A stretch of DNA of 64,000 nt from Haloglycomyces albus DSM 45210 (GTDB taxonomy: Bacteria; Actinomycetota; Actinomycetes; Mycobacteriales; Micromonosporaceae). The notes under the pieces were generated by a model, which saw only the letters and a program-made list of their open reading frames with translations, ran no database searches and was not told the DNA's origin. Positions 3,580 through 24,570 of this stretch are shown here, one piece after another. The stretch is from the NCBI RefSeq assembly GCF_000527155.1, contig NZ_AZUQ01000001.1:2353615-2417614 (forward strand). Reading direction: 5' to 3'. Positions within the stretch are counted from its first letter, which is position 1; every line of letters begins with the position of its first letter. A program made the position numbers and the translations under genes.

Positions 3580-4395
3580 TCAAGCCCGTACCGAACGGTG
3601 CAGGTGGATGTCTCCCGACAGCGAGCGGGCGTTGATCTCTACGTTCTTGCCGTCCTCGCTCGGTCGAGGCGAGGTGTCTCCGGCGGCGAGGTCGCTGATG
3701 ACCGAACCGGCCTTCGCGTCCAAGTCCATCCATATGTCCGTGCCCGGAACGACGCCGATGTCGATGGAGCCGGAGACGGTCTTGGTGTTCACCACGCCGT
3801 GGGAGACCGCTTCCAGGTCGATGGAACCGGACACCGTTTTGGCCTTGATCGAGGAGTCGGCGCGGTAGACGGTCGCGGTTCCGGAAACGGTGTTGATGCT
3901 GAGTTCACCGCCGACGTGATTGATGTCGACCGATCCCGAGGCGGTGTTCACGCGAACGTCGTCCGAAGCGTTTTGGATGTTGATGCTTCCCGAGGCCGTG
4001 GTGGCGCGCACGGTCTGTGCCTGCTCTATTTCGATCTGCCCGGCGGCCGTGTGTGCGGCGACGGGACCCATCCGTCCCAGCGTGTAGAGCGGTGCGGAGG
4101 CCGATTTCAGGCTGATGTCGGAACCGAACGGCACCTTGACGTCGATGTGGACGGCGATGTTCTTTTTGAAAAACCAGTTGCTTTGTTTTTCCGGGGCGAC
4201 GATCCGAAGGTGGTTGGAATCGAAGTCGACCTTGGCCAAATCGGCCGCGTCGTCACCGGAATCGCTGGTGCGGGCCGCCCGGATCTCGACGAAAACGGTA
4301 TCGGAGTCGTGTCCGGTAACGGTGGCGGATCCATCGGCCAGGGTGATGGACGCGGTTATGGGCCCATCGGCTTCGAATTCGGTGTACTCATTCAT
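3580..4395 (-). CDS. DUF4097 family beta-strand-repeat protein
   Basis: 271 residues. From about residue 110 to the end it consists of regular repeats of about 20 residues with the pattern (T/A)(x)SGSI(D/N)I(x)(x)(V/A), for example RATTASGSINIQNASDDVRV and KTVSGSIDLEAVSHGVV. This is the right-handed beta-helix pattern of DUF4097 (putative adhesin) proteins. No signal peptide or membrane helix is visible, so it is probably cytoplasmic. The upstream ribbon-helix-helix gene ends 45 bases before this start and the two are probably one operon. In actinobacteria I recall this pairing as common. The role is unknown; an anti-regulator or a partner of the DNA-binding protein is possible. Confidence 0.85.
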   Translation of the reverse strand: MNEYTEFEADGPITASITLADGSATVTGHDSDTVFVEIRAARTSDSGDDAADLAKVDFDSNHLRIVAPEKQSNWFFKKNIAVHIDVKVPFGSDISLKSASAPLYTLGRMGPVAAHTAAGQIEIEQAQTVRATTASGSINIQNASDDVRVNTASGSVDINHVGGELSINTVSGTATVYRADSSIKAKTVSGSIDLEAVSHGVVNTKTVSGSIDIGVVPGTDIWMDLDAKAGSVISDLAAGDTSPRPSEDGKNVEINARSLSGDIHLHRSVRA

Positions 4396-4440
4396 GGTTA
4401 TTCCCTTTGCTGATGTGTGTGAGCGGTCATGGGTCGCGTA

Positions 4441-4929
4441 TTAGGCCCGTGCGTAGCCGGTGACGCGTTGACTGTGCTTGGCGCCGCGTTGCGGTCCCGA
4501 GCCGCGTGAATGTACGGCGCCGTTGACCGCTCGTACCAGCCAGGCATTGACGGATATGCCGGAGTTCGCGGCCGCGGCCTCCACATCCTCCTTGAGCGAT
4601 TCGGGTAGTCGTAGCGTGATTCGGGAGACGTCGTCGTCGCTGGGTGGTGTCGGTGGAACTTCTGCCACGTCGGTTTCGACGTTGTTTATGGTGAAGCTGA
4701 CGTCTTTACCTCGGATCTTGAGGTCGACCGAAGCATCCGACCCTGCCTTGTCGAGATCGTCGGTGATCTCGGCGGCGGCCTCGGAGAGAGCCTCCATCAA
4801 GGCAAGACGTGCACCGGAGTCGAGAGCCTCGGCCAAGAGTTCGGCGGTCTGTGCGGCATCGTCACCCGCCGGCGCGGCAGCGGCTGTGAGGCTGCGGCGC
4901 AGTGAGTCGATGTACGGTGTCAAATCCAT
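4441..4929 (-). CDS. Ribbon-helix-helix DNA-binding protein (HicB/Arc-like C-terminus)
   Basis: 162 residues. The N-terminal 60 residues look helical (LTPYIDSLRRSLTAAA and an Ala-rich continuation). The C-terminal region at about residues 104-140 carries a ribbon-helix-helix motif: strand SRITLRLPESLKEDVEAAA followed by NSGISVNAWLVRAVNGAV. That is the layout used by Arc, CopG and HicB-type DNA binders. No toxin is adjacent, so an ordinary autoregulator is more likely than a toxin-antitoxin antitoxin. The promoter ahead of it contains a perfect 7-bp inverted repeat between -35 and -10, a good candidate for its own operator. The start codon has no ribosome site and lies 6 nt after the -10. Confidence 0.75.
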   Translation of the reverse strand: MDLTPYIDSLRRSLTAAAAPAGDDAAQTAELLAEALDSGARLALMEALSEAAAEITDDLDKAGSDASVDLKIRGKDVSFTINNVETDVAEVPPTPPSDDDVSRITLRLPESLKEDVEAAAANSGISVNAWLVRAVNGAVHSRGSGPQRGAKHSQRVTGYARA

Positions 4930-4935
4930 GACGCC

Positions 4936-4964
4936 ATAATGACATCATATTTGATGTCTGTCAA
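4936..4964 (-). promoter_or_regulatory. Promoter with palindromic operator in the spacer
   Basis: Reading the minus strand: -35 TTGACA at 4964-4959 (perfect consensus), a 17-bp spacer, -10 CATTAT at 4941-4936, then 6 nt and the ATG at 4929. The perfect inverted repeat GACATCA-(4 nt)-TGATGTC at 4941-4958 fills the spacer and touches the -10. A dimeric repressor bound there would exclude RNA polymerase. The RHH protein encoded directly downstream is the natural candidate, by inference. Confidence 0.65.
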
Positions 4965-5261
4965 GTCCAGCGGGCGAAACCGAACGTTCCGTCGTGCTGA
5001 TGTCACGGTACTCGAGTTGAAACACGGTCAAGCGAATGTTGGACGCCCAGGGTGGAGAACTGAAAACCGGTGGTAAACGGGTGCGCGGCCGCAGGTGGAG
5101 TGGAAGGGGTCGTCGCACGCCGGTGAGTGCTGGCTCTCGCGGGTTCAGAGGGTAGAGTCATTAGTCGAAGGACCACGGTGACCAGGCCCGGGTGGTGCTA
5201 CGACGGCAAGCGTAGGCCCGGATCGGCCTAGGTACGGCGATAATACAAGGGGGACACTTCC
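4965..5261. other. Upstream region of thyX, no gene
   Basis: About 300 bases separate the divergent RHH gene and thyX. I see no convincing ORF. Near the right end, GCGATAATAC (about 5237-5246) could be a -10 for thyX. The thyX ribosome site is the AAGGGGG just after it. No hairpin terminator is expected between divergent genes and I see none. Confidence 0.4.
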
Positions 5262-6014
5262 ATGACAGAGATTGCACCGCTCAATGTTCGGCTCATCGCC
5301 TGGACGCATTTCGAACCGCCGGAGGACGTGCCGTGGGAGGCCGACGCCGAGGGCGGCCAGGCTCTCGCGGAATTCGCCGGACGTGCCTGCTATCAGTCCT
5401 GGAAGAAACCCAACCCTAAAACCGCGACCAATACCGGCTACCTTGATCATATTATGCGTGTGGGTCACCTGTCGGTCTTGGAGCACGGCAGTGTCTCCTT
5501 CTATTTGACCGGAATTTCACGGTCGCTCACCCACGAGCTGATTCGCCACCGGCACTTCTCCTATTCGCAGCTGTCGCAGCGTTATGTTCCCGAACGGGAC
5601 GCCCAAATGGTCGAGCCCGACGTGATCGCCGACGACCCGGAGCTGCATCAGAAGTTTCTCGACGCCGCCGAAGCGAGCCAGAAAGCCTATACCGAACTGC
5701 TCGAAGGGCTGGAGAAGAAATTCGCGGATGTGGAGAACCGGACGCTGCGTCGCAAGCAAGCGCGCCAGGCTGCACGGGCGATTCTTCCCAACGCGACTGA
5801 GACTCGTATGGTGGTAACAGGCAATTACCGTGCTTGGCGTCACTTCATCGCGATGCGGGCGAGCGAGCACGCCGACGTGGAAATTCGGGCCATGGCGATC
5901 GAGTGCCTGCGCCAGCTGCAGGACAAGGCCCCCAATGTGTTCGCTGATTTCACCATCACCGAACTCGAGGATGGAACCGAAGTGGCATCGTCTCCGTATG
6001 TCACGGAGGGGTAG
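5262..6014 (+). CDS. thyX: Flavin-dependent thymidylate synthase ThyX
   Basis: 250 residues, the usual ThyX length. The ThyX signature [14 protein letters not shown] is at residues 95-108; the family consensus is RHRxxSxNxxSxRY-like, and its residues bind dUMP and FAD. The Ser of the second half is followed by RYVPE as expected. The C-terminal part has the [21 protein letters not shown] segment, where Arg and His residues contact dUMP. The enzyme makes dTMP from dUMP using methylenetetrahydrofolate and reduced FAD. An AAGGGGGA ribosome site precedes the ATG. It sits directly before dapA, as in mycobacteria. No thyA is seen in the window. Confidence 0.97.
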
Positions 6015-6085
6015 AATCCGCCGAATTCCCCGTGGAAAAATGTTGAAGGTGGCCCCGTGGGGCGGCCACAATTGAGGTAGTTGTG

Positions 6086-6176
6086 ACTGGTCAGGTAGTG
6101 GAGCTTCGAGCGATAAGACGGTAACGTCAGAGCTGGAATGGACCGGGTCGGACGGCCTGGTAGTGACCTGACCAGT
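6086..6176. repeat. Long-range inverted repeat between thyX and dapA
   Basis: ACTGGTCAGGT (6086-6096) is a perfect complement of ACCTGACCAGT (6166-6176), leaving a 69-nt interior that has further short complementary pieces. It could close a structured leader of the dapA transcript. Just upstream (about 6047-6068) a shorter hairpin, GTGGCC...GGCCAC, may terminate thyX. It does not look like a lysine riboswitch. Confidence 0.45.
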
Positions 6177-6249
6177 AGCGTTGGTTCGTTCGCGTCCCTC
6201 CGGTGGGTAGCCTCCGGTGCGGGCGCCTAACTAGTATTGGTGAAAAAGT

Positions 6250-7146
6250 ATGCGTAATGTGACGCGCCCCTTCGGGCGGACATTGGTTGCCATGATCACG
6301 CCGTTTACCCGTTCCGGAGAGCTGGATGTGCCGGGGGCGGCGGAATTGGCCAGGTATCTGGTGGATGACCAAGGTTGTGACGGTTTGGTGCTCAACGGCA
6401 CGACCGGTGAATCCCCGACGACCACTGACGCCGAGAAGGTTCAGCTCATCGAAACCGTGGTCGACGCGGTGGGAGATCGTGCTCATATCGTGTCCGGAGC
6501 GTCCACGAACAATACTGCGCATTCCATCGAACAGGCCAAGGCCGCTGAGAAGGCCGGAGCCAACGGTTTGCTGCTGGTGACGCCGTACTACTCGCAGCCG
6601 CCTCAAGACGGTGTGGAAGCGCATTTCAAGGCGATCGTCGACTCCACCGATCTGCCCGCCATGCTGTACGACATTCCGATACGCACGGGTATCACCCTTA
6701 CTCCCTACACCTATGACATTTTGGCAAAACACCCGCAGATCGTGGCGGTCAAAGACGCCACGCACGATATTCGTTTTACGCAACGTGTTCGTGTGGACAC
6801 CGGCCTGGCGGTATACTGTGGTGTCGATTCGTTGAATCTTCCGGCGTATTCCACCGGTCAGGTCGGCGTGGTCAGCGTCATCGCCCACCTGGTTGGCAAG
6901 CACATCAATACGATGTTCGACGCTTACGACAAAGGCGAGACGGATCGCGCGCTGGCGGTGTCCGACGGTCTGCTGCCTGCGTTGCATGCCTTGCAGGGTC
7001 CGGCCCAGGGGGTAGTCGCGGTGAAGGCGGCATTGAAGGCGAAGGGCCTTCCCGCCGGTGATCCGCGTATGCCTTTGCCGCCCGCCGATGCGCCGACCGT
7101 TGAGCTTATTAAACAGAATCTGGCGCTGGTGGAGGAAAACCTGTGA
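6250..7146 (+). CDS. dapA: 4-hydroxy-tetrahydrodipicolinate synthase
   Basis: 298 residues, standard DapA length, TIM-barrel aldolase class I. The Schiff-base lysine is K168 in VAVKDATHD. The catalytic tyrosine is Y140 in LYDIPIRTG, and the substrate motif GTTGESPT follows LVLNG near residues 48-57. It condenses pyruvate with aspartate semialdehyde, the first committed step to diaminopimelate. The start ATG follows a poor ribosome site; the alternative is none nearby. Its stop overlaps the GTG of rnj (GTGA), so the two are translationally coupled, as in mycobacteria. Confidence 0.97.
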   Translation: MRNVTRPFGRTLVAMITPFTRSGELDVPGAAELARYLVDDQGCDGLVLNGTTGESPTTTDAEKVQLIETVVDAVGDRAHIVSGASTNNTAHSIEQAKAAEKAGANGLLLVTPYYSQPPQDGVEAHFKAIVDSTDLPAMLYDIPIRTGITLTPYTYDILAKHPQIVAVKDATHDIRFTQRVRVDTGLAVYCGVDSLNLPAYSTGQVGVVSVIAHLVGKHINTMFDAYDKGETDRALAVSDGLLPALHALQGPAQGVVAVKAALKAKGLPAGDPRMPLPPADAPTVELIKQNLALVEENL

Positions 7147-8834
7147 GTCTAACGCGACCGAAGAATCTTGCCGCACCGTCCGAATTGGCTCCCGGAGGGT
7201 TGCGCGTCGTTCCTCTGGGGGGACTGGGCGCGATCGGTCGTAACATGACCCTCTTCGAGCATGAGGGTCGTCTTCTGATTGTGGACTGCGGAGTGCTGTT
7301 TCCCGATGTGGATCAGCCCGGGGTGGATTTGATTCTGCCGGACTTCTCACCGATTCTGGATCGGCTCGACGACATTGAAGCCATCGTGGTCACTCACGGC
7401 CACGAGGATCATATCGGTGGTATTCCATACCTGTTGAAACATAAAAACGACATTCCTCTGGTCGGGTCGCAGTTCTCGATCTCGCTCGTTGAGGCGAAGC
7501 TGAGAGAGCACCGCATCAAGCCGACCACCACGATCGTCACCGAGGACGACACCCTGGACCTTGGTCCGTTCGGGCTGGAGTTTCTAGCGGTCAACCACTC
7601 GATTCCGGACGCTTTGGCGGTCGCGATTCGTACCTCTGCCGGTTTGGCCCTGCACACCGGGGACTTCAAAATGGACCAGTTGCCGCTGGACGGCCGCATT
7701 ACCGACCTGGCCGGCTTCGGTCGTTTGGGCCGTGAAGGTGTGGACCTGCTCCTGTCCGATTCCACGAACGCGGAGACGCCTGGTTTCGTGACGTCGGAAC
7801 GTGAAATCGGACCGGTCATCGACGACATGTTCGACGGGGTGCAGGGGCGTATCATCGTCGCCTCGTTCGCCAGCCACGTGCACCGCGTGCAGCAGATCTT
7901 CGACGCCGCGCACAATCACGGCCGGAAGGTCGCCTTCGTGGGCCGTTCCATGGTGCGCAACATGGGGATCGCCCAGGACCTTGGCTTGTTGCGGGTTCCC
8001 GAGGGGCTTCTGGTCAGCATGGATCGGGCGGTGGATCTGCCCAACGACGAGGTCGTCTTCATGTCGACCGGTTCGCAGGGCGAACCGATGAGTGCCTTGG
8101 GACGCATGGCCTCCGGTGACCACCGGCATATCACCATCGAGCCCGACGACACGATCATTCTGGCCTCGTCGCTGGTACCGGGCAATGAGACCGCCGTCTA
8201 TGGTGTGATCAACCGTCTTGCCATGACCGGGGCTACGGTGATCCACAAGGGTGTGGCCAAGGTGCACGTCTCGGGGCACGCGCCGGCCGGTGAGTTGCTG
8301 TACGTGCTCAATACCGTGAAGCCGTCCAACGTCATTCCAATCCACGGAGAGGCACGCCATCTACAGGCGCACGCGCGTTTGGCGACGCAGTCCGGAGTGG
8401 AAGAGGATCAGGTGATCGTGGCGGAGAACGGTGACGTCATCGATCTGATCGACGGTAAGGCGGAGCTGGTCGGGCATGTCGACAACAAACTCGTTTACGT
8501 GGACGGTCTTTCCGTGGGCGACGTGGTCGAGCCCGTTCTGCGGGAACGTCGCGTGCTCGGAGACGGGGGATTCATCTCGGCGACGGTAGTGATCGATTCG
8601 GAGAACGGCAAGGTCGTCGGTGGCCCCACGATCTCGGCCAAAGGCTTCTCCAACGATCCACGTGCCTTTGACGAGGTTTTGCCGTTGATCAACAGTGCGA
8701 TGGAAAAGGCGGCCCGTGACGACGTCCTCGATCCGCACCGTCTGCAACAGATCATGCGTCGAACGGTGGGGAAGTGGGTCAACGACACCTATCGGCGGCG
8801 CCCCATGATCGTTCCGCACGTGCTGGAGGTTTAA
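7143..8834 (+). CDS. rnj: Ribonuclease J
   Basis: 563 residues. It is a metallo-beta-lactamase/beta-CASP nuclease. The zinc motif HGHEDH is at 85-90 within VVTHGHEDHIGGIPYLL. Further ligands lie in ALHTGDFKMD and LLSDSTNA, and the beta-CASP region includes SFASHVHR, FVGRSM, STGSQGE and the terminal HVSGHAPAGE and IPIHGEARH motifs. RNase J performs 5' exonuclease and endonuclease processing of mRNA and rRNA. The GTG start overlaps the dapA stop by 4 bases. A strong bidirectional hairpin follows 17 bases after the stop. Confidence 0.96.
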   Translation: MSLTRPKNLAAPSELAPGGLRVVPLGGLGAIGRNMTLFEHEGRLLIVDCGVLFPDVDQPGVDLILPDFSPILDRLDDIEAIVVTHGHEDHIGGIPYLLKHKNDIPLVGSQFSISLVEAKLREHRIKPTTTIVTEDDTLDLGPFGLEFLAVNHSIPDALAVAIRTSAGLALHTGDFKMDQLPLDGRITDLAGFGRLGREGVDLLLSDSTNAETPGFVTSEREIGPVIDDMFDGVQGRIIVASFASHVHRVQQIFDAAHNHGRKVAFVGRSMVRNMGIAQDLGLLRVPEGLLVSMDRAVDLPNDEVVFMSTGSQGEPMSALGRMASGDHRHITIEPDDTIILASSLVPGNETAVYGVINRLAMTGATVIHKGVAKVHVSGHAPAGELLYVLNTVKPSNVIPIHGEARHLQAHARLATQSGVEEDQVIVAENGDVIDLIDGKAELVGHVDNKLVYVDGLSVGDVVEPVLRERRVLGDGGFISATVVIDSENGKVVGGPTISAKGFSNDPRAFDEVLPLINSAMEKAARDDVLDPHRLQQIMRRTVGKWVNDTYRRRPMIVPHVLEV

Positions 8835-8851
8835 AGCGCCGAGTTATCGTA

Positions 8852-8885
8852 ATGGCCCTGGAATTCTTCGCAATTCCAGGGCCAT
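8852..8885. terminator. Hairpin terminator between rnj and a convergent gene
   Basis: A 14-bp perfect stem (8852-8865 with 8872-8885) has a 6-nt loop CTTCGC. It lies between the rnj stop and the stop of the minus-strand membrane-protein gene, so it can serve both. There is no long U tract; AT-rich bases follow on the right side. Confidence 0.75.
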
Positions 8886-8889
8886 AATT

Positions 8890-9687
8890 CTATTGCGGTG
8901 GGTTTTGGTTGGGTTGCATGGTCACCGTCGGCTGATTGGGGCCGCCGCCGGTCACCGGCCCGTAGTATGGTCCCTGGTTCTGCTGGGGCTGCATCTGCAG
9001 TTTTAGATCCATGAGGAACGTGGAGGCCGCGAGCGCGATGGAGCCGAACATGACGAAGTAGAAGCCGCCCCCGACCGAGACGCTGATGTCCACCTCGTCT
9101 TGGTCCTGCTGCAGAAAGTCGACCATATGGGAGGCCTCGGCCATGGGAATGTAGGCGGCGGCGATGCTCAGGACCGCCAGAAAGACCGCAGCGGCACGGA
9201 CCGGCCATTTGATTCGATCGAAGCGGGTTGCGGCCGCGATGACGGCGAGAACCAGGAACGGCAGGATGATCAGGCTCTTGTTTTCGAATCCACCCGAAGC
9301 GGCATAAGGGATGGAGTAAATGGAGAACATGCCTCCCGATTCACTGAGATCCTCCGTGTCGACCTCGACGATGGGGAGGATGAGTCCCACTGCCAGGAGG
9401 ATGAGTCCGAGGGCGGCGACGATGAGCCCCAGGATCATGCCCAGCGGCGGTTCGGGTTTCGACATCGCGGGAGCGGGTGGAGGCATGGCCGGGGGTGGCG
9501 GGGGCGGCGCCGAGTGCGGCGGTTGCTGCTCACTTGGGCTGCTGGGTTGAGACGAGCCTTGGTCGGTCGGCGGGGTCATGTCCGGCGCGAAGGAGACCTT
9601 GTCGGCATCGGAATCGGGTATGGAGTCGTCCCCGGATTGATTGCCGTGTTCCGGAGGCCCCGAGGGAGACGGGTTTGAATGTGTCAT
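8890..9687 (-). CDS. Pro-rich four-helix membrane protein
   Basis: 265 residues from the ATG at 9687, which has GGTGGGG upstream. A longer open frame to 10542 is antisense to the SDR gene and is not used. The first 95 residues are polar, with Pro/Gln/Ser runs (PPHSAPPPPPPAMPPPAPAM). Four hydrophobic segments follow, for example MILGLIVAALGLILLAVGLI, LIILPFLVLAVIAAAT, AAVFLAVLSIAAAYIP and FYFVMFGSIALAASTFLM. The C-terminus is Gln/Pro/Gly-rich again. Such Pro-rich membrane proteins are frequent in actinobacteria. I recognise no family and infer no function. Confidence 0.75.
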   Translation of the reverse strand: MTHSNPSPSGPPEHGNQSGDDSIPDSDADKVSFAPDMTPPTDQGSSQPSSPSEQQPPHSAPPPPPPAMPPPAPAMSKPEPPLGMILGLIVAALGLILLAVGLILPIVEVDTEDLSESGGMFSIYSIPYAASGGFENKSLIILPFLVLAVIAAATRFDRIKWPVRAAAVFLAVLSIAAAYIPMAEASHMVDFLQQDQDEVDISVSVGGGFYFVMFGSIALAASTFLMDLKLQMQPQQNQGPYYGPVTGGGPNQPTVTMQPNQNPPQ

Positions 9688-9779
9688 GTCCCCACCATAC
9701 TGGACGGGGACTCCGGGCAACCGTATGATTGCGTGAAACACCGTCACGTCGTTGGGAAGTGCCGACGAACGTCGCCGTG

Positions 9780-10484
9780 TTACTTCTTTGGTGTGGACAT
9801 CGACAATGGATTCGGCGGTGCGACACGGACGTCCTCGAAAACCAGGTCGGCGGGAGAGTCCACCAGGGCGATGATCGAGTCGGCGATGCTGTCGACACTG
9901 GTGGCGCGGGCAGGATCGTACTTCGCTCCGAGGTCGTCGCGAACCTGACGCTGCATGTCGGTGTCGAAATGGGAGGGATACAGGCTCGAAACCCGCACTC
10001 CGTGAGGTCGTTCCTCCGCTCGTAGGGAATCGGCGACCGCTTTCAGCGCATGCTTGGACGCCGCATACGAGGCCCATACCGGACCGGCGGAGAGTCCCGC
10101 TCCGGAATTGACGAACAGAATATGCCCCTTCGATTCTCGCAGGCGAGGCAAGAGCACTCGAGTCAACTCCACGGGAGCCAGTACATTGACGTCCAGAGAC
10201 TGACGCCACTGTTCCAAACCTTGTTCGGCGAGTGAACCGATATGGGCCACACCGGCATTGTGAATGAGAATGTCCACCTCGTCCACATCGGCTTGCTGTA
10301 CGGCACCGGCTATCGTCGTGGCGTCCGACAGATCCGCCACAATGGTCGTATCGACGTCCAGGTCTTCCACAGACGAGTCGTTCCGTACCACCGGAACCAC
10401 CCGGTCGCCGTGAGCGATGAATTTTTCCGCCAGCGCACGACCCAAACCGCGTCCGGCGCCTGTAATCACTACTGTTTTTCCCAC
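9780..10484 (-). CDS. SDR-family oxidoreductase
   Basis: 234 residues, a classical short-chain dehydrogenase. The N-terminal Rossmann motif is TGAGRGLG (about 8-15), then a D-L pair in VADLSD. NAG is in LIHNAGVAH, the catalytic Ser is in FVNSGAGLSAG and YAASK is the active-site Tyr/Lys. The lack of an acidic residue after beta-2 (VVRNDSS) suggests NADPH, by inference. The substrate is unknown. The mycobacterial homologue (Rv2750) occupies the same place beside ftsK. It is divergent from ftsK with about 60 bases between. Confidence 0.92.
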   Translation of the reverse strand: MGKTVVITGAGRGLGRALAEKFIAHGDRVVPVVRNDSSVEDLDVDTTIVADLSDATTIAGAVQQADVDEVDILIHNAGVAHIGSLAEQGLEQWRQSLDVNVLAPVELTRVLLPRLRESKGHILFVNSGAGLSAGPVWASYAASKHALKAVADSLRAEERPHGVRVSSLYPSHFDTDMQRQVRDDLGAKYDPARATSVDSIADSIIALVDSPADLVFEDVRVAPPNPLSMSTPKK

Positions 10485-10546
10485 GTCTGTACTTTAACGC
10501 CCAACTCCGCAGCAAGTCTTCCATTGTGAGGGTTATCCTCAATTAC

Positions 10547-15121: not shown

Positions 15122-15690
15122 GCACACATCCCCGACCGGTATCGGTGTGGAATATCGCCAATGCCATTACCGTCGCGCGAATCGCGCTGATCCCGCTGTT
15201 CGTCTATATCGTCGTTCAATCGGGTATGGACGACGCCAAGCTCCAAATCATCGCGACCGCGGTGTTTCTCATCGCCTCCCTTACCGATTTTCTGGACGGT
15301 TGGCTGGCGCGTTCGCGCGGATTGGTGACGTCGTTCGGTAAGCTCGCCGATCCGATCGCGGACAAGGCGTTGATCGGGGCCGCGCTTATTCTGTTCAGTT
15401 TTTACGAGGTACTCCCGTGGTGGGTAACGGTTATTATTCTGGTTCGTGAACTGGGAATAACCGGACTACGCATGGCTGTTTTGAGACATGCGGTGATTCC
15501 GGCGGGTAGCGGTGGTAAAGCCAAGACTGTTTTTCAGATCTCCGCTGTGGCCTGGTATTTGTTCCCTTGGCCCGAGCCGATTGACATGCTGGGGCCGATA
15601 TTGATGGCTATAGCGTTCGTACTGACGGTATTCACCGGACTGGACTATCTCTGGAAAGCCTGGAAAGTGTCTGGACGCAATGTCGGGTAA
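15118..15690 (+). CDS. pgsA: CDP-diacylglycerol-glycerol-3-phosphate 3-phosphatidyltransferase
   Basis: 190 residues, an integral membrane CDP-alcohol phosphotransferase. The catalytic signature DG(x2)AR(x8)G(x3)D(x3)D is present as DGWLARSRGLVTSFGKLADP followed by IAD. About five or six membrane helices are visible (LIPLFVYIVVQ, IIATAVFLIASL, ALILFSFYEVLPWWVTVIIL, ILMAIAFVLTVFTGL). It makes phosphatidylglycerophosphate for PG and cardiolipin. The position after rimO and before clgR matches the actinobacterial PgsA. The related inositol enzyme is possible but usually lies elsewhere. The GTG overlaps the rimO stop. Confidence 0.92.
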   Translation: MSTHPRPVSVWNIANAITVARIALIPLFVYIVVQSGMDDAKLQIIATAVFLIASLTDFLDGWLARSRGLVTSFGKLADPIADKALIGAALILFSFYEVLPWWVTVIILVRELGITGLRMAVLRHAVIPAGSGGKAKTVFQISAVAWYLFPWPEPIDMLGPILMAIAFVLTVFTGLDYLWKAWKVSGRNVG

Positions 15691-15740
15691 ACGCGCTAGT
15701 CTATAAAGCAACACTCAAATTGACAGACTTGGAGGACGCG

Positions 15741-17383: not shown

Positions 17384-17412
17384 GGACCGGTGGGCCAAAC
17401 CGGTCCTTTTTT
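17384..17412 (+). terminator. Rho-independent terminator of pspA
   Basis: GGACCGGT (17384-17391), a 7-nt loop, ACCGGTCC (17399-17406), then six T residues (17407-17412). This is the only textbook hairpin plus U tract I found in the window. Confidence 0.9.
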
Positions 17413-17480: not shown

Positions 17481-18215
17481 GTGCACAAGCTACCTACCCT
17501 GAACCGGCTGGACGGGCTGACCGACGATGAACTGCGCGAGGCCTATCGACCCCCGAAGGAATCCTGGTTGCGGGTGAACTTCGTGTCGTCGGCCGACGGA
17601 GCCGCCACCCTCGACGGAGTCAGCGGCGGCCTGTCGGGACAGGAGGACAAGCGGGTTTTCAAGCTTCTACGCGCCGGCTGTGACGTCCTGCTGGCGGGAA
17701 TGGGAACCGTGTCGGCCGAGAACTACGGCCCCCTGTTGTTGAGTTCCGAGCGGCGGCAGTGGCGGCTCGCCCAAGGGAAACCCGAGTATCCCGTCATGGC
17801 GGTGGCGAGCGCTTCGGCAGGTTTGAGCCCGACGGCGTCGCTGATCACCGATGCCCCACGTACTCCGATCGTCGTCTGTGCCGCCGACGCACCGGCATCA
17901 CGCCTTTCCGCGCTCCGTGAGGTCTGCGACGTGATCGCCGTCGGTAGGGGCGCGATCGACTATCAGTCCGCGATCGCACACTTGCGTGAACGCGGACTGC
18001 GGCATGTCCTCAGCGAGGGTGGACCGCGCGTTTTCGGTGATCTTGTGGCCGCCGGACTGGTCGACGAGTTGGACGTCACCTATTCGCCCTTGTTGGTGGG
18101 CGCGGGGCCCGACCGGATAGCTGCGGGAACGCCCGCGAAGGCGACGAATTCCATGCGACTGGCCCACGCCCTGGAAGCCAACGGTAATTTGATCTGCCGA
18201 TATCTGTCACAATGA
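17481..18215 (+). CDS. RibD C-terminal-domain (pyrimidine reductase-like) protein
   Basis: 244 residues from the GTG at 17481; the open frame reaches back to 17337 but crosses the pspA terminator. It has a dihydrofolate-reductase-like fold of the RibD C-terminal family: VNFVSSADGAATLDGVSG near the start, VLLAGMGTVSAENYGPLL in the middle and HVLSEGGPRVFGDLVAAGLV, where the EGGP loop binds NADPH, in the last third. Such stand-alone proteins are annotated as pyrimidine reductase family members; the real substrate is unknown. Its stop overlaps the ATG of herA (ATGA), so it heads the end-resection operon. Confidence 0.85.
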   Translation: MHKLPTLNRLDGLTDDELREAYRPPKESWLRVNFVSSADGAATLDGVSGGLSGQEDKRVFKLLRAGCDVLLAGMGTVSAENYGPLLLSSERRQWRLAQGKPEYPVMAVASASAGLSPTASLITDAPRTPIVVCAADAPASRLSALREVCDVIAVGRGAIDYQSAIAHLRERGLRHVLSEGGPRVFGDLVAAGLVDELDVTYSPLLVGAGPDRIAAGTPAKATNSMRLAHALEANGNLICRYLSQ

Positions 18216-19930
18216 CGCTCATGAGTGAAGCCATCGGACGAGTACTGGGGACCGAGGACGCCACTCCGCTGTCGTTCTGGACAGCGGTGGAATCCACCGC
18301 TTACGCACAACTCGACGATGTGCTGATCACCGAACGCGAGGTACCCGAGGTGGGGACGGTGCGGATCTCCGGCGTGGTGACCGCGGTTCGCAGCCGTCAC
18401 GAAGGGGCCCAGTTCGACTCGGACGTGTTCGACATCAGTGAAGGGCATCTTCCCGCCCAGGTGCAGGAGGCCGCCGAAGTCACCGTGACTCGGGTGGAGC
18501 CGGAGATCTTCGTTCCGCCGCTTCCCGGAGCGGTCGTCTCCCGAGCGGCCGCCGACGACCGCGATCGGGCCCTGTACTTTGACGGGATGGAACATCGTGT
18601 GCCCCTGGGATTCTCACGCGACGGCCATCCGGTGTTTCTGAACGCCGACTTCCTCACCGGGAAACGCGGTGCCCACGTGTCGATTTCCGGCGTCAGCGGG
18701 GTGGCGACCAAAACCTCCTTCGCCACGTGGCTTCTGTACTCCCTGTTTCGTTCCAAGGCGCTCGAAGGGGAGGCGGCCAACACCAAGGCCCTCATATTCA
18801 ACGTCAAGGGAGAGGACCTTCTTCTCCTCGACCACCCCAACAGCAAATTGGACGACGCCACCGGTGAACAGTACCACCGTTTGGGCCTCACGCCCGGACC
18901 GTTTCCGTCCGTGCGGGTCGACGCTCCGCCCCGAATCGGGGACCCGAAGGGCGTCCCGGACGTGGCCTGCCGCTCCACAGGTGTGGCACCGCTGTACTGG
19001 AGTCTGGCGGAATTCTGCACCGAAGGACTCCTGCCTTTCGTATTCGCCGACGCGGACGACGACCGGCAGCAGTACACCATGGTGGTCAACCAGGTCACCG
19101 CCCGTCTGCGCAAAGAGGCACGCCCGAAGGACAACGGCGCGGTCGCTCTGGACGGAGAACTGCTGACCAGTTACGACCACCTGGTGGACTTCATCTGCGA
19201 GCGGCTCTCCGACGAAGCCGAACGCGGCCAATGGGCGGGAACGGCCGTCGGACTCGGAACGATCAGTGCGTTCATTCGACGTTTGGTCGCCAGCCGTCGT
19301 GACCTGTCGCGAATCGTGCGTGGCGACCTGTCTCCGCCCGCCGAAGACGAATCGCCCGCCCAAGTACGCGTGGTGGATCTGCACAATCTTCCCGACCGGG
19401 CCCAGCGATTCGTTGTCGGAGTGACGCTTCGCGCCGAATTCGAGCGAAAGGAAAAGTCCGGCACGGCTCGACCGCTGCAGTTCATCGTGCTCGACGAACT
19501 GAACAAGTACGCTCCACGGGACGGGTCCAGCCCCATCAAGGACCTTCTCCTCGACATCGCCGAACGTGGGCGCTCGCTGGGTATCGTTCTCATCGGTGCG
19601 CAACAGACGGCCTCGGAAGTGGAGCGGCGGGTGGCGGCCAACTCCGCCGTTCGCGTCGTGGGTCGTTTGGACGCCGCCGAAGCGACCCGACCCGAGTACG
19701 GATTCCTGACCCACGCGCAGCGGGGACGGGTGCTGATGGCGAAACCGGGAACCATGTTCGTGGCACAGCCGGAACTCCCCGTTCCCTTGGTGGTGGGATT
19801 CCCGTTCCCGTCCTGGGCGACTCGTCCGGAAGAAGCGGGCCCGCCACCGGCGGGTACCGGTGCGTCGGTGACCGCCGCCCGCGATCCCTTCGAACTGGCC
19901 GCTGACGATGACGACGACATTCCGTTCTAA
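18212..19930 (+). CDS. herA: HerA-like ATPase with SSB-type C-terminal tip
   Basis: 572 residues. The N-terminus looks like a HAS-barrel (IGRVLGTEDATPLSFWTAV, then VGTVRISGVVTAVRSRHEG). The ATPase core follows: a P-loop-like GVSGVATKTS at 160-169, a Walker B FIVLDELNKYAP near 426-436, and LIGAQQTASEVERRVAANSA near 455-475, the Q-rich motif of HerA/FtsK-type translocases. The P-loop lacks the usual Gly before Lys, so ATP binding should be checked. The last residues are DDDDDIPF, matching the SSB C-terminal tip. HerA is the hexameric DNA pump that works with NurA in archaeal end resection. The gene overlaps the upstream reductase and is followed 14 bases later by sbcD. Confidence 0.85.
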   Translation: MTLMSEAIGRVLGTEDATPLSFWTAVESTAYAQLDDVLITEREVPEVGTVRISGVVTAVRSRHEGAQFDSDVFDISEGHLPAQVQEAAEVTVTRVEPEIFVPPLPGAVVSRAAADDRDRALYFDGMEHRVPLGFSRDGHPVFLNADFLTGKRGAHVSISGVSGVATKTSFATWLLYSLFRSKALEGEAANTKALIFNVKGEDLLLLDHPNSKLDDATGEQYHRLGLTPGPFPSVRVDAPPRIGDPKGVPDVACRSTGVAPLYWSLAEFCTEGLLPFVFADADDDRQQYTMVVNQVTARLRKEARPKDNGAVALDGELLTSYDHLVDFICERLSDEAERGQWAGTAVGLGTISAFIRRLVASRRDLSRIVRGDLSPPAEDESPAQVRVVDLHNLPDRAQRFVVGVTLRAEFERKEKSGTARPLQFIVLDELNKYAPRDGSSPIKDLLLDIAERGRSLGIVLIGAQQTASEVERRVAANSAVRVVGRLDAAEATRPEYGFLTHAQRGRVLMAKPGTMFVAQPELPVPLVVGFPFPSWATRPEEAGPPPAGTGASVTAARDPFELAADDDDDIPF

Positions 19931-19944
19931 GAGGGAAGGCTGAC

Positions 19945-21102
19945 ATGCGGATACTGCACACGTCCGATTGGCATGTGGGAGTGAGTTTGAAGGGGCGTGC
20001 GCGTCTCGACGAACAGCGGCGAGTCTTCAGCGAGATCGTCGACGTCGCACGGGAGAAAAAACCCGACCTTGTCATCGTGGCCGGTGACCTGTACGATTCC
20101 GCCTCTCCCTCGTCGGCGGCGCAGAAGGTGCTGACCTCCGCGCTGTCGGCACTGCGCTCGACGGGAGCCGAAGTCGTCGCCGTGGCGGGCAACCACGATA
20201 ACGGACCGGGGCTGGAGGCCCTGCGAACGTGGGCCCATGCGGCGGGGATCCATCTGCGTGGCCGTATCACCAGTGCCGACGACCACATCATTGCCTCGCA
20301 GACCGCGAGCGGGGAAGAGTGGGTGCTGGCCGCCTTGCCGTTCGTTTCGCAACGGTACGCCGTGCGGGCGGCGGAAATGTTCGAACTGTCGGCGGCGGAA
20401 ACGGAATCGGGATACGCCGATCACCTACGGCGTCTAGTCGTCCGCCTGTCACAGTCGTTCCGTGACGACGCGGTGAATCTCTTTACCGGACACCTCACCG
20501 TCGTCGGCGGTACGACCGGCGGCGGCGAACGTGAAGTACACACCGTAGCCGACTATGCGGTGCCCGCCTCCATTTTTCCCAGCTCTACGTCCTATGTGGC
20601 ATTGGGGCACCTGCACAAGGCACAGACGATATCCGGGCCGTGTCCGATTCGGTATTCGGGCGGACCGGTCATGGTGAACTTCGGGGAGGAAAGCTACCGC
20701 CCGTCCGTTTCGATCGTCGATGTCACCGCCGATACGCCCGCCAAAGTGGAAACGGTCGACATCGACGCCGCCGTGCCCTTCCAAACCGTGCGGGGAACGG
20801 TCGATAAGTTGCGGGAGGCCACGGTTGACGATAAGGCCTTCCTGCGAGTGTTCGTAGAGGAGCCCGCTCGAGCCGGTCTGCGCGGAGAGGTCGCCGAACT
20901 GTTCCCCGACGCCGCCCAGGTCCACATTCAGCCTCCGGTAACGGGAACCGACGAACCGCCCGCCTCCCGTCGACTCGGACGTAGTCCCGCCGAGCTGTTC
21001 AGCACCTACCTCGACGAAAGCGGGCACGATGATCCGGCGGTACTGGAGTTGTTCAACGAACTCTACGCCGACGCCCAGACCAACCCGGGAGAGGACGACT
21101 GA
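19945..21102 (+). CDS. sbcD: SbcD/Mre11-type DNA double-strand-break nuclease
   Basis: 385 residues. All phosphoesterase motifs are visible: D8 and H10 in HTSDWHVG, D48 in VIVAGDLYDS, N83-H84 in VAGNHDNG, a His in LFTGHLTV and GHLHKAQ. The two-metal centre cuts DNA ends and hairpins in complex with SbcC. The C-terminal capping region is of normal length. An AGGGAAGG ribosome site precedes the ATG. The stop overlaps sbcC by one base (TGATG). In this operon it corresponds to archaeal mre11. Confidence 0.95.
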   Translation: MRILHTSDWHVGVSLKGRARLDEQRRVFSEIVDVAREKKPDLVIVAGDLYDSASPSSAAQKVLTSALSALRSTGAEVVAVAGNHDNGPGLEALRTWAHAAGIHLRGRITSADDHIIASQTASGEEWVLAALPFVSQRYAVRAAEMFELSAAETESGYADHLRRLVVRLSQSFRDDAVNLFTGHLTVVGGTTGGGEREVHTVADYAVPASIFPSSTSYVALGHLHKAQTISGPCPIRYSGGPVMVNFGEESYRPSVSIVDVTADTPAKVETVDIDAAVPFQTVRGTVDKLREATVDDKAFLRVFVEEPARAGLRGEVAELFPDAAQVHIQPPVTGTDEPPASRRLGRSPAELFSTYLDESGHDDPAVLELFNELYADAQTNPGEDD

Positions 21103-23531
21103 TGCGACCCATCCGTTTGGATCTCAACGGTTTCGGTTCCTACGCCGACACCACGACGCTCGACTTCAGCGACGTCGAATTCTTCGCCCTCACCGGACCG
21201 ACAGGAGCGGGAAAATCCACCGTTCTGGACAGCATCTGCTTCGCCCTTTATGGACGGACTCCCCGACTGAAAGGCAAACTCGACTTCACCATCGCACCGT
21301 CGGCGACCGAAGGGAGCGTACGGTTCGTATTCGCCGCAGGGGCCAACCGTTACGTTCTCACCCGCACCCTTCGGCGCTCCAAACAAGGGCAAGTGAAGAC
21401 CCAGAACGCGGGCATCGAACGTCTGCCCGCCGATGTCGACGTCACCGACGCGAACGAACTCACCTCCGGCCTGGGCACCCCGCTGGCCACGGGGGCCAAT
21501 AAGGTGAACACCGTGGTGGAAAAGATCATCGGTCTGCCGTTCGAGCAGTTCACCAAATCGGTGCTGCTGCCGCAGGGCGAGTTCGCTCAGTTTCTCCACG
21601 CCACCGCCGCCGAACGACGTAACATCCTGGAAAACCTCCTCGGACACGGTGTCTACGCTGACATTCAACGCAAAGCCGCCGCGCGACGCGATCACGCCGA
21701 TACGACTCGTAAAACTCTCGACGCTCAGCTGGCCAAGATACCCACCGTCGGCGACGCCGACCTCTCCCACGCGGAAGGAAAGGTCACCGAACTCGACGAC
21801 CTCTCCCACACCGTTCGACAACGTGCCGAGGAACTCGACAACCTCACCACGACGGTCACCAACCTGCGTGAGCGGCTCACGGCCCTGGACGCGGATCTCT
21901 CCCACCTGACCTACGTCAAACGTCCTCACGGACTGGACGACCTGACCGAACGATTCAACGACGCGGCGGAAAAGGTCGCGGCCAAAGCCGCCGATGTGGA
22001 AAACGCCGAGGCCGACGACGAACGCCTCCGTGAGGAGCTGGCCGGGCTCAATCTCGCCGTCATCACCCGCCGCATCGACGCCTGGCACCAGCTGCACGAA
22101 TGCGAAAACAATATCAACCTGGGCACCGAAATGGTCGATGCGCTCAAGGGTGAAATCTCCGAACAGCGCGAACTGGTCGACGCTGCCCGCGAAGAGGTCG
22201 ACGTCCAGACGCAGCAGGTTGAACAGGCCCGCCTGGTCGACTTCGCGGGAAGTCTCCGTGATCAACTCGCGGAAGGATACCCGTGCCCCGTTTGCGATCA
22301 GGAAGTCGACCGCCTACCCAAACGCGACATCAACCACGCCCTCCATGACGCCCAGCAGGCAGTCGGCCTGGCCAAACAGGAACTCGAAGACGCCGAGAAG
22401 AACCTACAGAGCAATGAATCCAAGCTCATCACCTATGAAACCCGGCTGAACGAGCGACTGGCGGAACAAAAACGCCTCAAACGCAAACTCGCCGAAGCGC
22501 CCGACCTCGCACAATTGCAAGAGCAACAGGAACGCGCCGAAGCCGCAGACAGCCGACTGAAAGCCAGTTCCACGACGCTCGCAACGGCCCGTAAAGCCCT
22601 CCGCGCCGCACAAAAACGCCGCGACACGATCGAAAACGAGCATCAAAACGCGTGGCACGACTTCCGTCACGCCCGCGATCAAGTGGCGGGACTCAACCCG
22701 CCGGTCGCCCCCGACGACCTCCACACGGCCTGGGGCGAATTGGTCGACTGGGCGAAAGCACGCCACGCCGACACCCGGGCGGCACGGGACGAGGTCCAAC
22801 GCGAGCTGGCGGCGTCCGACGACCGTGCCGGAGCTCTGCGGCGCGATATGGCCGGAGCGCTCGCGGAAGTGGGAGTGAAGGCCCCGACCGGCGGGACGGG
22901 GACCGATTACATCACCGCGCATCTGGAGGCGACCAAGGACGCACGTTTCCGCCTCGACGGACTGCGGGAATCGCGGCAGCGCCGGGTGGACTTGGAGTCG
23001 GAGATCGGTCGGCATGTCCGCGAATGGGAAGTGGCCAAGGCCCTGGCCGATCACTTGAAGGCCAATCGCTTTACCGGGTGGCTGCTCAGCGAGGCCCTCG
23101 ATGAGCTGGTGCTGGGTGCGTCGCAGACGTTGAATCGCATCAGTAACGGGCAGTACGATCTGGTGCGGCGCGACAACGAATTCTGGGTCATCGACCACCA
23201 TGACGCGGATTTGGCGCGACCGGTACGGTCGCTTTCCGGCGGTGAGACGTTCGCGGCTTCGCTGTCGCTCGCTCTGGCCCTGTCGGATCAGTTGGCGGCC
23301 ATGGCTTCCGGCGGAACGGCCCTGGAATCGATCCTTCTCGACGAGGGATTCGGCACCCTGGACCCCGACAGTCTCGACGCCGTGGCGACCACTCTGGAAG
23401 CTTTGACCACCGATTCGAACCGCATGGTCGGGGTCGTGACTCACGTGGCGGACCTGGCCAATCGAGTACCGGTACGCTACGAGGTCACTAAGGGCGTACG
23501 CGGTTCACGAGTCGAGAAGCTGGTGAACTGA
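21102..23531 (+). CDS. sbcC: SbcC/Rad50-type SMC ATPase
   Basis: 809 residues, shorter than E. coli SbcC (about 1050) and nearer to archaeal Rad50. Walker A GPTGAGKST is at 32-40. The zinc-hook CPVC is at 395-398, at the middle of two charged coiled-coil arms. The ABC signature is RSLSGGETFAAS and the Walker B LDEGFGTLD is near the C-terminus. The protein binds DNA ends as a dimer and controls SbcD. The two halves of coiled coil are short, implying short arms. It overlaps sbcD at the start and nurA at the end by one base each, indicating tight coupling. Confidence 0.95.
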   Translation: MRPIRLDLNGFGSYADTTTLDFSDVEFFALTGPTGAGKSTVLDSICFALYGRTPRLKGKLDFTIAPSATEGSVRFVFAAGANRYVLTRTLRRSKQGQVKTQNAGIERLPADVDVTDANELTSGLGTPLATGANKVNTVVEKIIGLPFEQFTKSVLLPQGEFAQFLHATAAERRNILENLLGHGVYADIQRKAAARRDHADTTRKTLDAQLAKIPTVGDADLSHAEGKVTELDDLSHTVRQRAEELDNLTTTVTNLRERLTALDADLSHLTYVKRPHGLDDLTERFNDAAEKVAAKAADVENAEADDERLREELAGLNLAVITRRIDAWHQLHECENNINLGTEMVDALKGEISEQRELVDAAREEVDVQTQQVEQARLVDFAGSLRDQLAEGYPCPVCDQEVDRLPKRDINHALHDAQQAVGLAKQELEDAEKNLQSNESKLITYETRLNERLAEQKRLKRKLAEAPDLAQLQEQQERAEAADSRLKASSTTLATARKALRAAQKRRDTIENEHQNAWHDFRHARDQVAGLNPPVAPDDLHTAWGELVDWAKARHADTRAARDEVQRELAASDDRAGALRRDMAGALAEVGVKAPTGGTGTDYITAHLEATKDARFRLDGLRESRQRRVDLESEIGRHVREWEVAKALADHLKANRFTGWLLSEALDELVLGASQTLNRISNGQYDLVRRDNEFWVIDHHDADLARPVRSLSGGETFAASLSLALALSDQLAAMASGGTALESILLDEGFGTLDPDSLDAVATTLEALTTDSNRMVGVVTHVADLANRVPVRYEVTKGVRGSRVEKLVN

Positions 23532-24436
23532 TGCGGATCACCGTAGACGCGTGGGACCCTTCCTTCGCCGACGGTTCCGAGTCGCCGGGAGCGGCCGGTG
23601 CGGCGGAATTGGAGGTCAATGTCGAACGTCCGGGTGCGGACTGGGCACCGATCACTCCCACCGCGCCGGGGCCGAACCGAGTGGCCGTCGTCGACGGGGT
23701 GCGACGTCTCGACGCCCGGGTGGAACTGTCCGACTCGGAGGGACGGTGGCCCGGGCTGTGCGTGTCCTGGGCGGCGGGGCTGGTAACCTGCGACTTCGCG
23801 GCCGCCCACTCAGAGGTGTCGACCACTCGGGTTCAACGCGGGCTGTTCAGTCCGGTTGATCCGGAGCGGGAACTGGGACCGTATCCGTATTTCCCCATCA
23901 AAAGCGACGACACCGCCGAGTTGATCGCGGCCTCGCAGAACGCGATGTCCGCTCTGGAAGCGGAGATCGCCCTCAACGCGGAAGAAACGGATCTGGCCGT
24001 ATTGGACGGAACCCTGCGGGGACGGCGGCACGCGGACAGAGCGATCGGATACATTAAAAGTCATCAGCGTTCCTATTTGCCCGCCGACCTCAATCCGATC
24101 GTGGAACAACTTCAACCGGCACAACGCACTCCGGTCTTCCAATTGACCACCACCTGGCCACGCTACTGCGCCTATTTGCGCCTGCCCGGAGTAACGCCCT
24201 ACGGGTGGAACGGCATTGCCCGGCTGGAGGCGGCCGACCACGGTCAGGCCGACGATGCGGCGGAGGCGATCCGACTGGTGAACTCCGCTGCCGCCGTTCT
24301 GCCTCGGCTCGCCTCTTCCAGCCATAAGGATCCGCGTGCGCCGCAGAACCTCACTCCCATCGCGGGTCTGGAACGGCGCTTGAAACATCTCATGGGAGAT
24401 CCGCGAATCCTGTTGCGCACCATTCGGCGTGCGTGA
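23531..24436 (+). CDS. nurA: NurA-like nuclease
   Basis: 301 residues. Weak sequence identity is expected in this family, but the motif order fits NurA. D55 is in VAVVDGVRR, near the N-terminus. D159 is in LAVLDGTLRG. A Lys (K176) is in AIGYIKSHQRSYL, and a later segment (YCAYLRLPG, YGWNGIARLEAAD) resembles the C-terminal strand motif. NurA is a manganese-dependent 5'-3' nuclease threaded by HerA. The placement directly after sbcC, with a one-base overlap, in a herA operon strongly supports the assignment. It was assigned by motifs and context, not by a search. Confidence 0.78.
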   Translation: MRITVDAWDPSFADGSESPGAAGAAELEVNVERPGADWAPITPTAPGPNRVAVVDGVRRLDARVELSDSEGRWPGLCVSWAAGLVTCDFAAAHSEVSTTRVQRGLFSPVDPERELGPYPYFPIKSDDTAELIAASQNAMSALEAEIALNAEETDLAVLDGTLRGRRHADRAIGYIKSHQRSYLPADLNPIVEQLQPAQRTPVFQLTTTWPRYCAYLRLPGVTPYGWNGIARLEAADHGQADDAAEAIRLVNSAAAVLPRLASSSHKDPRAPQNLTPIAGLERRLKHLMGDPRILLRTIRRA

Positions 24437-24570
24437 CATTTTTGTTATAAATAAGCGTTCGAACCGCAACCATCCTTGGTATCTCAGACGTCTAGCCACA
24501 TAGAACAACCGTCGACGTCCCCTCGCGTTTCCGCGGCTGGGCGTTCTATTCATTACCGAGGAGATTTTTC

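Follow-up and report, generated by a model that had tools for sequence, protein, structure and literature searches.

A conserved unit of bacterial-type HerA and NurA with SbcD and SbcC, a probable DNA-end resection operon beside AdnAB in Haloglycomyces albus

Results

Gene content of the herA-sbcD-sbcC-nurA unit

We analyzed a window of 64,000 nucleotides (nt) of DNA from Haloglycomyces albus DSM 45210 (NZ_AZUQ01000001.1), to which coordinates refer unless another stretch is named, and within it a unit of genes encoding a HerA translocase, the SbcD and SbcC proteins and a NurA nuclease (Table 1). A first, sequence-only reading of this DNA had described these four genes as adjacent, overlapping or nearly so, and arranged as herA-sbcD-sbcC-nurA, and the coordinates bear this out; a further gene, ribD_C, lies inside the interval that had been claimed and is absent from the title of that claim. 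The ribD_C and herA genes overlap by 4 nt and herA and sbcD are 14 nt apart, whilst sbcD and sbcC, and likewise sbcC and nurA, overlap by 1 nt.

Table 1. Genes of the unit and terminator-like sites at its borders
Feature	Position	Strand	Evidence
ribD_C, RibD C-terminal domain, pyrimidine-reductase-like, first gene of the unit	17481-18215	+	Pfam RibD_C E 5.5e-30
herA, HAS-barrel/RecA-like hexameric translocase, bacterial (Deinococcus) type	18212-19930	+	7f6d_B E 3.2e-138
sbcD, mre11-like nuclease	19945-21102	+	TIGR00619 173.1 bits
sbcC, rad50-like ATPase, 809 aa, CPVC hook	21102-23531	+	TIGR00618 and motifs
nurA, RNase H-like nuclease, bacterial type	23531-24436	+	Pfam NurA, 7f6d_H, fold match
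Intrinsic-terminator-like hairpin and T run, pspA/ribD_C gap	17384-17406	+	Consensus scan; 8 pairs, TTTTTT tail
Intrinsic-terminator-like hairpin, T-rich tail, spanning the nurA stop	24411-24438	+	Consensus scan

HerA, of 572 amino acids (aa), matched no Pfam family up to an expect value (E) of 0.1 and no NCBIfam family, yet phmmer against solved structures found homology to Deinococcus radiodurans HerA over residues 5-545 (7f6d_B, Table 1; the next match had E 0.01), and its identification as HerA therefore holds on full-length homology. K175, D220 and D487, given as key residues of the D. radiodurans protein (PMC9960219), align with K167, D202 and D428 here, in columns where at least 97% of the 68 aligned rows share one residue. 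This full-length homologue thus retains both Walker motifs (A and B) and the D220 site. PMC9960219 also names D78, E80 and D81 of D. radiodurans HerA as contacts, together with K299, K303, H305 and K306 in motif 3 of its NurA. In alignments read by eye the HerA residues correspond to D71, F73 and D74 (two of three acidic), and those of NurA to R259, S263, H265 and K266 (three of four basic). Elsewhere in the genome a 1066-aa frame gave a weak second HerA match (E 5.4e-6; G000:C1:1800395-1800733).

The assignment of NurA was confirmed by a Pfam NurA match above its cut-off (24.7 against 21 bits), by phmmer homology to D. radiodurans NurA over residues 1-299 (7f6d_H, E 2.6e-15; Thermotoga TM1739, 1zup, reached E 0.065), and by a predicted fold that is NurA-like and not an unrelated one. 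The AlphaFold2 model (predicted local distance difference test, pLDDT, 87.9; predicted template modelling score, pTM, 0.85) had its best fold match in 7f6d_G (E 6e-17, TM score 0.70) with 1zup next, and no archaeal NurA was among the best 50 of 501 fold matches. An NCBIfam search of NurA gave no match. The model carries an N-terminal strand, which PMC9960219 describes as a feature of bacterial-type NurA. By our own count on the alignment, D55 lies opposite D53 of the D. radiodurans protein, the residue of a nuclease-inactive mutant (PMC9960219). The acidic triad D55, E143 and D159, as well as W8 and K176, was invariant in 56 of 56 NurA rows (our own and 55 relatives; six of 61 relatives were dropped for unusual length), and we infer that D55/E143/D159 fit the catalytic D-E-D triad of Sulfolobus NurA (PMC4351679).

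Family scores and catalytic motifs also upheld the identities of SbcD and SbcC, which had been proposed from motifs. The TIGR00619 score of SbcD (Table 1) compares with a cut-off of 77.65 bits, and the protein has the motifs DxH, GDxxD, GNHD and GHxH; at E 0.001, the genome of H. albus contained this one SbcD match only. SbcC scored 264.7 bits with TIGR00618, below the cut-off of 478.5, yet this was the top of 62 families, and it carries Walker A, the CPVC hook, SGGE and LDEG. For both proteins the bacterial models outscored the archaeal Mre11/Rad50 models.

Conservation of the unit and descent of its proteins

We compared the locus with named relatives (the best 80 of 504 stretches encoding a HerA relative, a listing that may omit the source genome itself), with herA loci of the class, and with a mixed sample of 20 loci, 19 from outside the class and one from the family of H. 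albus. Of the 80 named loci, 69 had all four genes co-directional and in the order herA-sbcD-sbcC-nurA. Nine of the remaining 11 reach the end of their DNA after or within sbcC, leaving L090 and L093 as true exceptions. All four were in order in 17 of 18 class loci, the other (L163) being cut by a contig end. Two loci read alongside these on other grounds stand outside that count: L179, a remnant described below, and L180, from another class, with HerA at only 30%. Order was kept in 13 of the mixed-sample loci and one had nurA-herA-sbcD-sbcC, whilst contig ends cut four; at L035 and L038, which encode HerA, the 10 kilobases (kb) downstream gave no sbcD match. The sequence-only reading had proposed checking the order in other genomes, and among the named and class loci it is conserved. 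Chance adjacency is ruled out by this recurrence (69/80 named, 17/18 class and 13/20 mixed-sample loci). A ribD_C gene preceded herA in the same orientation at 73 of these 80 named loci.

By protein search, 118 of the 121 family genomes encode NurA. HerA matches below E 1e-100 occurred in 21 of 394 genomes of the class sample, including that of H. albus (20 near full length, one cut by a contig end), and in 62 of 396 of the phylum sample. The Pfam NurA model, positive in two of the 394 class genomes, was rejected as a census tool: it is insensitive, having missed G204, whose NurA the protein search finds, and the figure is not an absence count.

The closest named HerA rows were an Actinomycetes metagenome bin and Glycomyces (77–79% identity), followed by Stackebrandtia, Longispora and Actinorhabdospora (72–73%) and other Micromonosporaceae (67–69%). 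Trees of HerA (53 rows) and NurA (42 rows), which used 11 of the 80 named loci and contained no archaeal rows, agreed in recovering one clade for the Actinomycetes and one for the family, and in the position of our own sequence, with HerA and NurA of H. albus as sisters of Glycomyces in both. On sequence grounds the source organism is Glycomyces-like. Because the two trees agree, HerA and NurA look to have descended together vertically within the class, with losses elsewhere.

Several relatives showed features of their own. A gene that by eye resembles a beta-carbonic anhydrase stands between sbcC and nurA in four of the Glycomyces loci inspected (L055 13232-14008; L058 15481-16359; L065 17454-18230; L067 15843-16604). 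On a 451-kb linear Streptomyces plasmid, Wadjet JetA2/JetB2 and an ImmA/IrrE gene stand next to herA-sbcD-sbcC-nurA (L184 2540-15456), and a cyanobacterial plasmid typed as conjugative has nurA-herA-sbcD-sbcC, where the annotation calls nurA and herA hypothetical (L185 6955-13955). A remnant found via NurA, with the end of sbcC, nurA and no herA match, lies between BREX-like helicase/PglZ genes and Wadjet JetA1 (L179 6379-8585).

AdnAB in the same genome

The sequence-only reading had implied a contrast between this operon and the AdnAB or RecBCD-type enzymes of actinobacteria, and had proposed checking for adnAB and recBCD. We searched the source genome, a single contig of 3,535,419 bases. 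Two minus-strand frames in one stretch of it (L140), which overlap by 217 nt as mechanically listed, matched 7sjr_A (7188-10538, E 1.4e-129) and 6ppu_B (4282-7404, E 4.8e-198), entries listed as UvrD/REP or DNA helicase. We take these two chains (7SJR, 6PPU) to be, respectively, subunits A and B of the Mycobacterium AdnAB enzyme. RecC (PF04257) had no match in the genome, with E. coli as the one positive of 14 controls, and all 121 family genomes had a PDDEXK_1 match. The implied contrast did not stand: because an AdnA-AdnB pair is present in the same genome, the operon is additional to AdnAB and does not replace it.

A PafBC-type promoter upstream of the unit in relatives

The PafBC promoter consensus is given as tTGTCRgtg-8 nt-TannnT (PMC5656591), and RecBCD and AdnAB, both resection complexes, belong to the PafBC regulon of M. 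smegmatis (PMC8223512). The core of this consensus, TGTCR-N11-TANNNT, was sought in the 170 nt preceding the first gene, taken as ribD_C where it abuts herA and otherwise as herA. The exact core was found in 8/20 mixed-sample, 24/79 named (one of the 80 was dropped for too little upstream DNA) and 1/18 class loci, and with up to one mismatch in 14/20, 59/79 and 4/18, respectively. In 2,380 random windows the frequencies were 0.46% exact and 2.8% with up to one mismatch. Other genes of the mixed-sample, named and class loci, controls that may include the operon itself, gave 3/97, 3/558 and 1/78 exact (0.5–3%) and 7, 28 and 6 with up to one mismatch. For the exact core this was significant in the mixed sample (Fisher's exact test p = 2e-5) and in 20 named representatives (p = 3e-5; four exact, Stackebrandtia three times), although these p values are too small since related loci are not independent. 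Allowing up to two mismatches, the full consensus had 21 matches in 127,657 nt of upstream sequence against 16 in 895,903 nt of background. LexA boxes showed no enrichment before the operon, with 6 matches in 127,657 nt and 65 in 895,903 nt of background when up to two mismatches were allowed. The core stands before ribD_C in Glycomyces and directly before herA in Catellatospora, and this difference in position argues against mere shared descent. In many relatives, then, the unit appears from its upstream sequence to be induced by DNA damage through PafBC, a claim that concerns those relatives and not the genome of H. albus.

In H. albus, two adjacent frames of 389 and 346 aa, sought as PafB/PafC, were identified to the WYL domain only. 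The region before its adnAB was without the core (best site with two mismatches).

Surroundings of the unit

On the 5' side of the unit lie genes for a cytidine-diphosphate (CDP)-alcohol phosphatidyltransferase (PgsA-like), a helix-turn-helix (HTH) regulator and PspA, and on the 3' side genes for an LCP protein and an amidase; by Pfam, the scanned neighbors are ordinary. A transfer RNA scan of the window found none. Shuffled sequence would be expected to give 8.2 terminator-like sites for this region and the scan gave seven, so that position alone is informative. With both strands counted, the 64-kb window contains a single exact PafBC core, at 15681-15702, 17 nt before the frame of the HTH regulator (15720). 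From its position beside pgsA and pspA this regulator is presumably ClgR (Pfam identifies HTH_3 only). ClgR is reported to recognize the same class of promoter (PMC5656591). Read-through into the unit from a promoter before the regulator gene is judged unlikely because a terminator-like hairpin, identified by consensus only, stands between pspA and ribD_C.

Discussion

We conclude that this locus is probably a chromosomal DNA-end resection operon, in which a bacterial-type HerA-NurA pair is joined to SbcCD and exists beside AdnAB. AdnAB presumably shares the job of end resection and consists of UvrD-type helicase-nucleases, another protein family. The archaeal operon has the exact order herA-mre11-rad50-nurA, and the sequence-only reading had accordingly called the present genes archaeal-type. 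That term suits the gene set and order; it does not suit their kind or origin, as the nearest structures are the Deinococcus pair and the tree neighbors are actinobacterial (in trees without archaeal rows). Judged by homology, HerA and NurA are proteins of bacterial, not archaeal, type. We know of no linkage to sbcDC in Deinococcus. The D. radiodurans HerA-NurA pair (7F6D; PMC9960219) resembles that of H. albus in full-length homology of both proteins, in Walker A/B, in the D53 equivalent of NurA, and in the N-terminal strand and W8 of NurA, but in H. albus the two genes share a unit with sbcD and sbcC, and one of three acidic HerA contacts is altered. In Sulfolobus the four genes form one operon (PMC4351679), and co-induction of the archaeal four by ultraviolet light (UV) is reported (PMC8708640). 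The union of the four functions in one operon is common to Sulfolobus (PMC4351679, PMC2288612) and H. albus, whereas here HerA and NurA are of bacterial type and SbcD/SbcC fit bacterial models better. Oceanithermus profundus, a bacterium and not an actinobacterium, has hepA-sbcD-sbcC, with sbcD and sbcC downstream of the herA homolog as here (PMC5448004). Published accounts already include actinobacterial homologs and another bacterium in which herA adjoins sbcDC (PMC8708640, PMC5448004), and a review describes bacterial HerA-NurA as studied only in Deinococcus (PMC8708640). Our literature search, which covered titles and the starts of abstracts, found no description of an actinobacterial herA-sbcD-sbcC-nurA operon or of its control by PafBC, and no paper naming both NurA and Micromonospora.

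By analogy with the characterized systems, the most likely role of the operon is 5'-end resection for recombination. From work on D. radiodurans and archaea, SbcC-SbcD would open double-strand ends that are blocked or capped by protein. Next, a HerA hexamer and a NurA dimer would load, with ATP hydrolysis pumping duplex DNA into NurA (PMC9960219), and NurA would cut the 5' strand, leaving a 3' tail for RecA. HerA-NurA/SbcCD would work beside AdnAB. In many relatives DNA damage would switch the unit on via PafBC; no such control is visible in the H. albus genome. That the four proteins may act as one functional complex rests on published archaeal and Deinococcus work.

Several observations weigh against this interpretation. 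E80 of D. radiodurans HerA, a NurA-contact residue, aligns by eye with the non-acidic F73. The herA and sbcD matches are 0.6–4 kb apart in five of the 13 ordered mixed-sample loci (L037, L039, L040, L045, L049), and those of sbcC and nurA are more than 200 nt apart in 15 of 17 Glycomyces loci (L053-L069), several with intervening genes; with such gaps in some relatives, a single transcript is not universal. Enrichment of the PafBC core was not significant at class loci (Fisher's exact test p = 0.34 for the exact core, found in one of 18, and p = 0.09 with up to one mismatch), and upstream of the unit in our own window there was no recognizable core, the best site having two mismatches. D. radiodurans and Thermus that lack nurA or herA are reported to show modest effects on damage resistance or even a gain in it (PMC9960219). 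Unlike that report, Thermus without HepA is described as losing UV resistance (PMC5448004).

HerA-NurA and SbcCD could be mere neighbors in separate pathways, with SbcCD dealing with hairpins and blocked ends and HerA-NurA acting elsewhere. We consider this rather unlikely. A Thermus nurA-hepA pair without sbcDC (PMC5448004), the two mixed-sample loci with HerA and no nearby sbcD match (L035, L038) and the intergenic gaps in some loci all speak for it, but gene order is kept across families, the HerA and NurA trees agree (trees that cover these two proteins), and archaeal Mre11 and HerA co-precipitate with Rad50 (PMC2288612). A recent acquisition of the cluster from archaea, for which the one-operon gene set of Sulfolobus (PMC4351679) might be cited, is highly improbable: the top structure matches are bacterial, the named HerA relatives are actinobacterial with up to 79% identity, and the trees, which had no archaeal sequences, make HerA and NurA of H. 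albus sisters of Glycomyces within the Actinomycetes clade.

A main function as an anti-phage or anti-plasmid nuclease, sharing parts with repair, seems improbable to us, although HerA-like ATPases with nuclease partners act in this way in known defence systems. HerA has weak PADLOC matches (mad8, E 9.8e-9; HerA models, E 4.3e-5 and weaker), the NurA model matches TdpAB weakly (E 2.3e-3), and defence genes adjoin both the Streptomyces plasmid copy (JetA2/JetB2, Wadjet) and the L179 remnant, which lies between BREX-like genes and JetA1. Against this, the ordinary neighbors scanned in the window form no defence-island setting; the 71 proteins scanned in the flanks of class loci matched 27 PADLOC families at E 1e-20, each of the 25 listed through a single protein; and the presence of NurA in 118 of 121 family genomes is core-gene-like.

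The interpretation as a resection operon allows a wider and more tentative proposal, which we regard as plausible without thinking it probable. Across much of Actinomycetota, a second PafBC-induced resection machine, HerA-NurA and SbcCD in one operon, may back up AdnAB as the bacterial counterpart of the damage-induced archaeal operon, and H. albus may have kept the machine and lost or altered the damage promoter still seen in Glycomyces. Annotation can miss such loci: herA here has no Pfam or NCBIfam match, and two plasmid records name herA 'ATP-binding protein' or 'hypothetical protein' and label nurA 'hypothetical protein'. The unit is real, conserved and of bacterial type, and its interest lies more in what becomes testable than in newness. 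The cellular role of bacterial HerA-NurA is disputed between published accounts (PMC9960219, PMC5448004). A conserved operon in many named cultured actinobacteria, accompanied by AdnAB in H. albus and preceded in many relatives by a promoter that is likely to respond to DNA damage, would open that role to direct testing.

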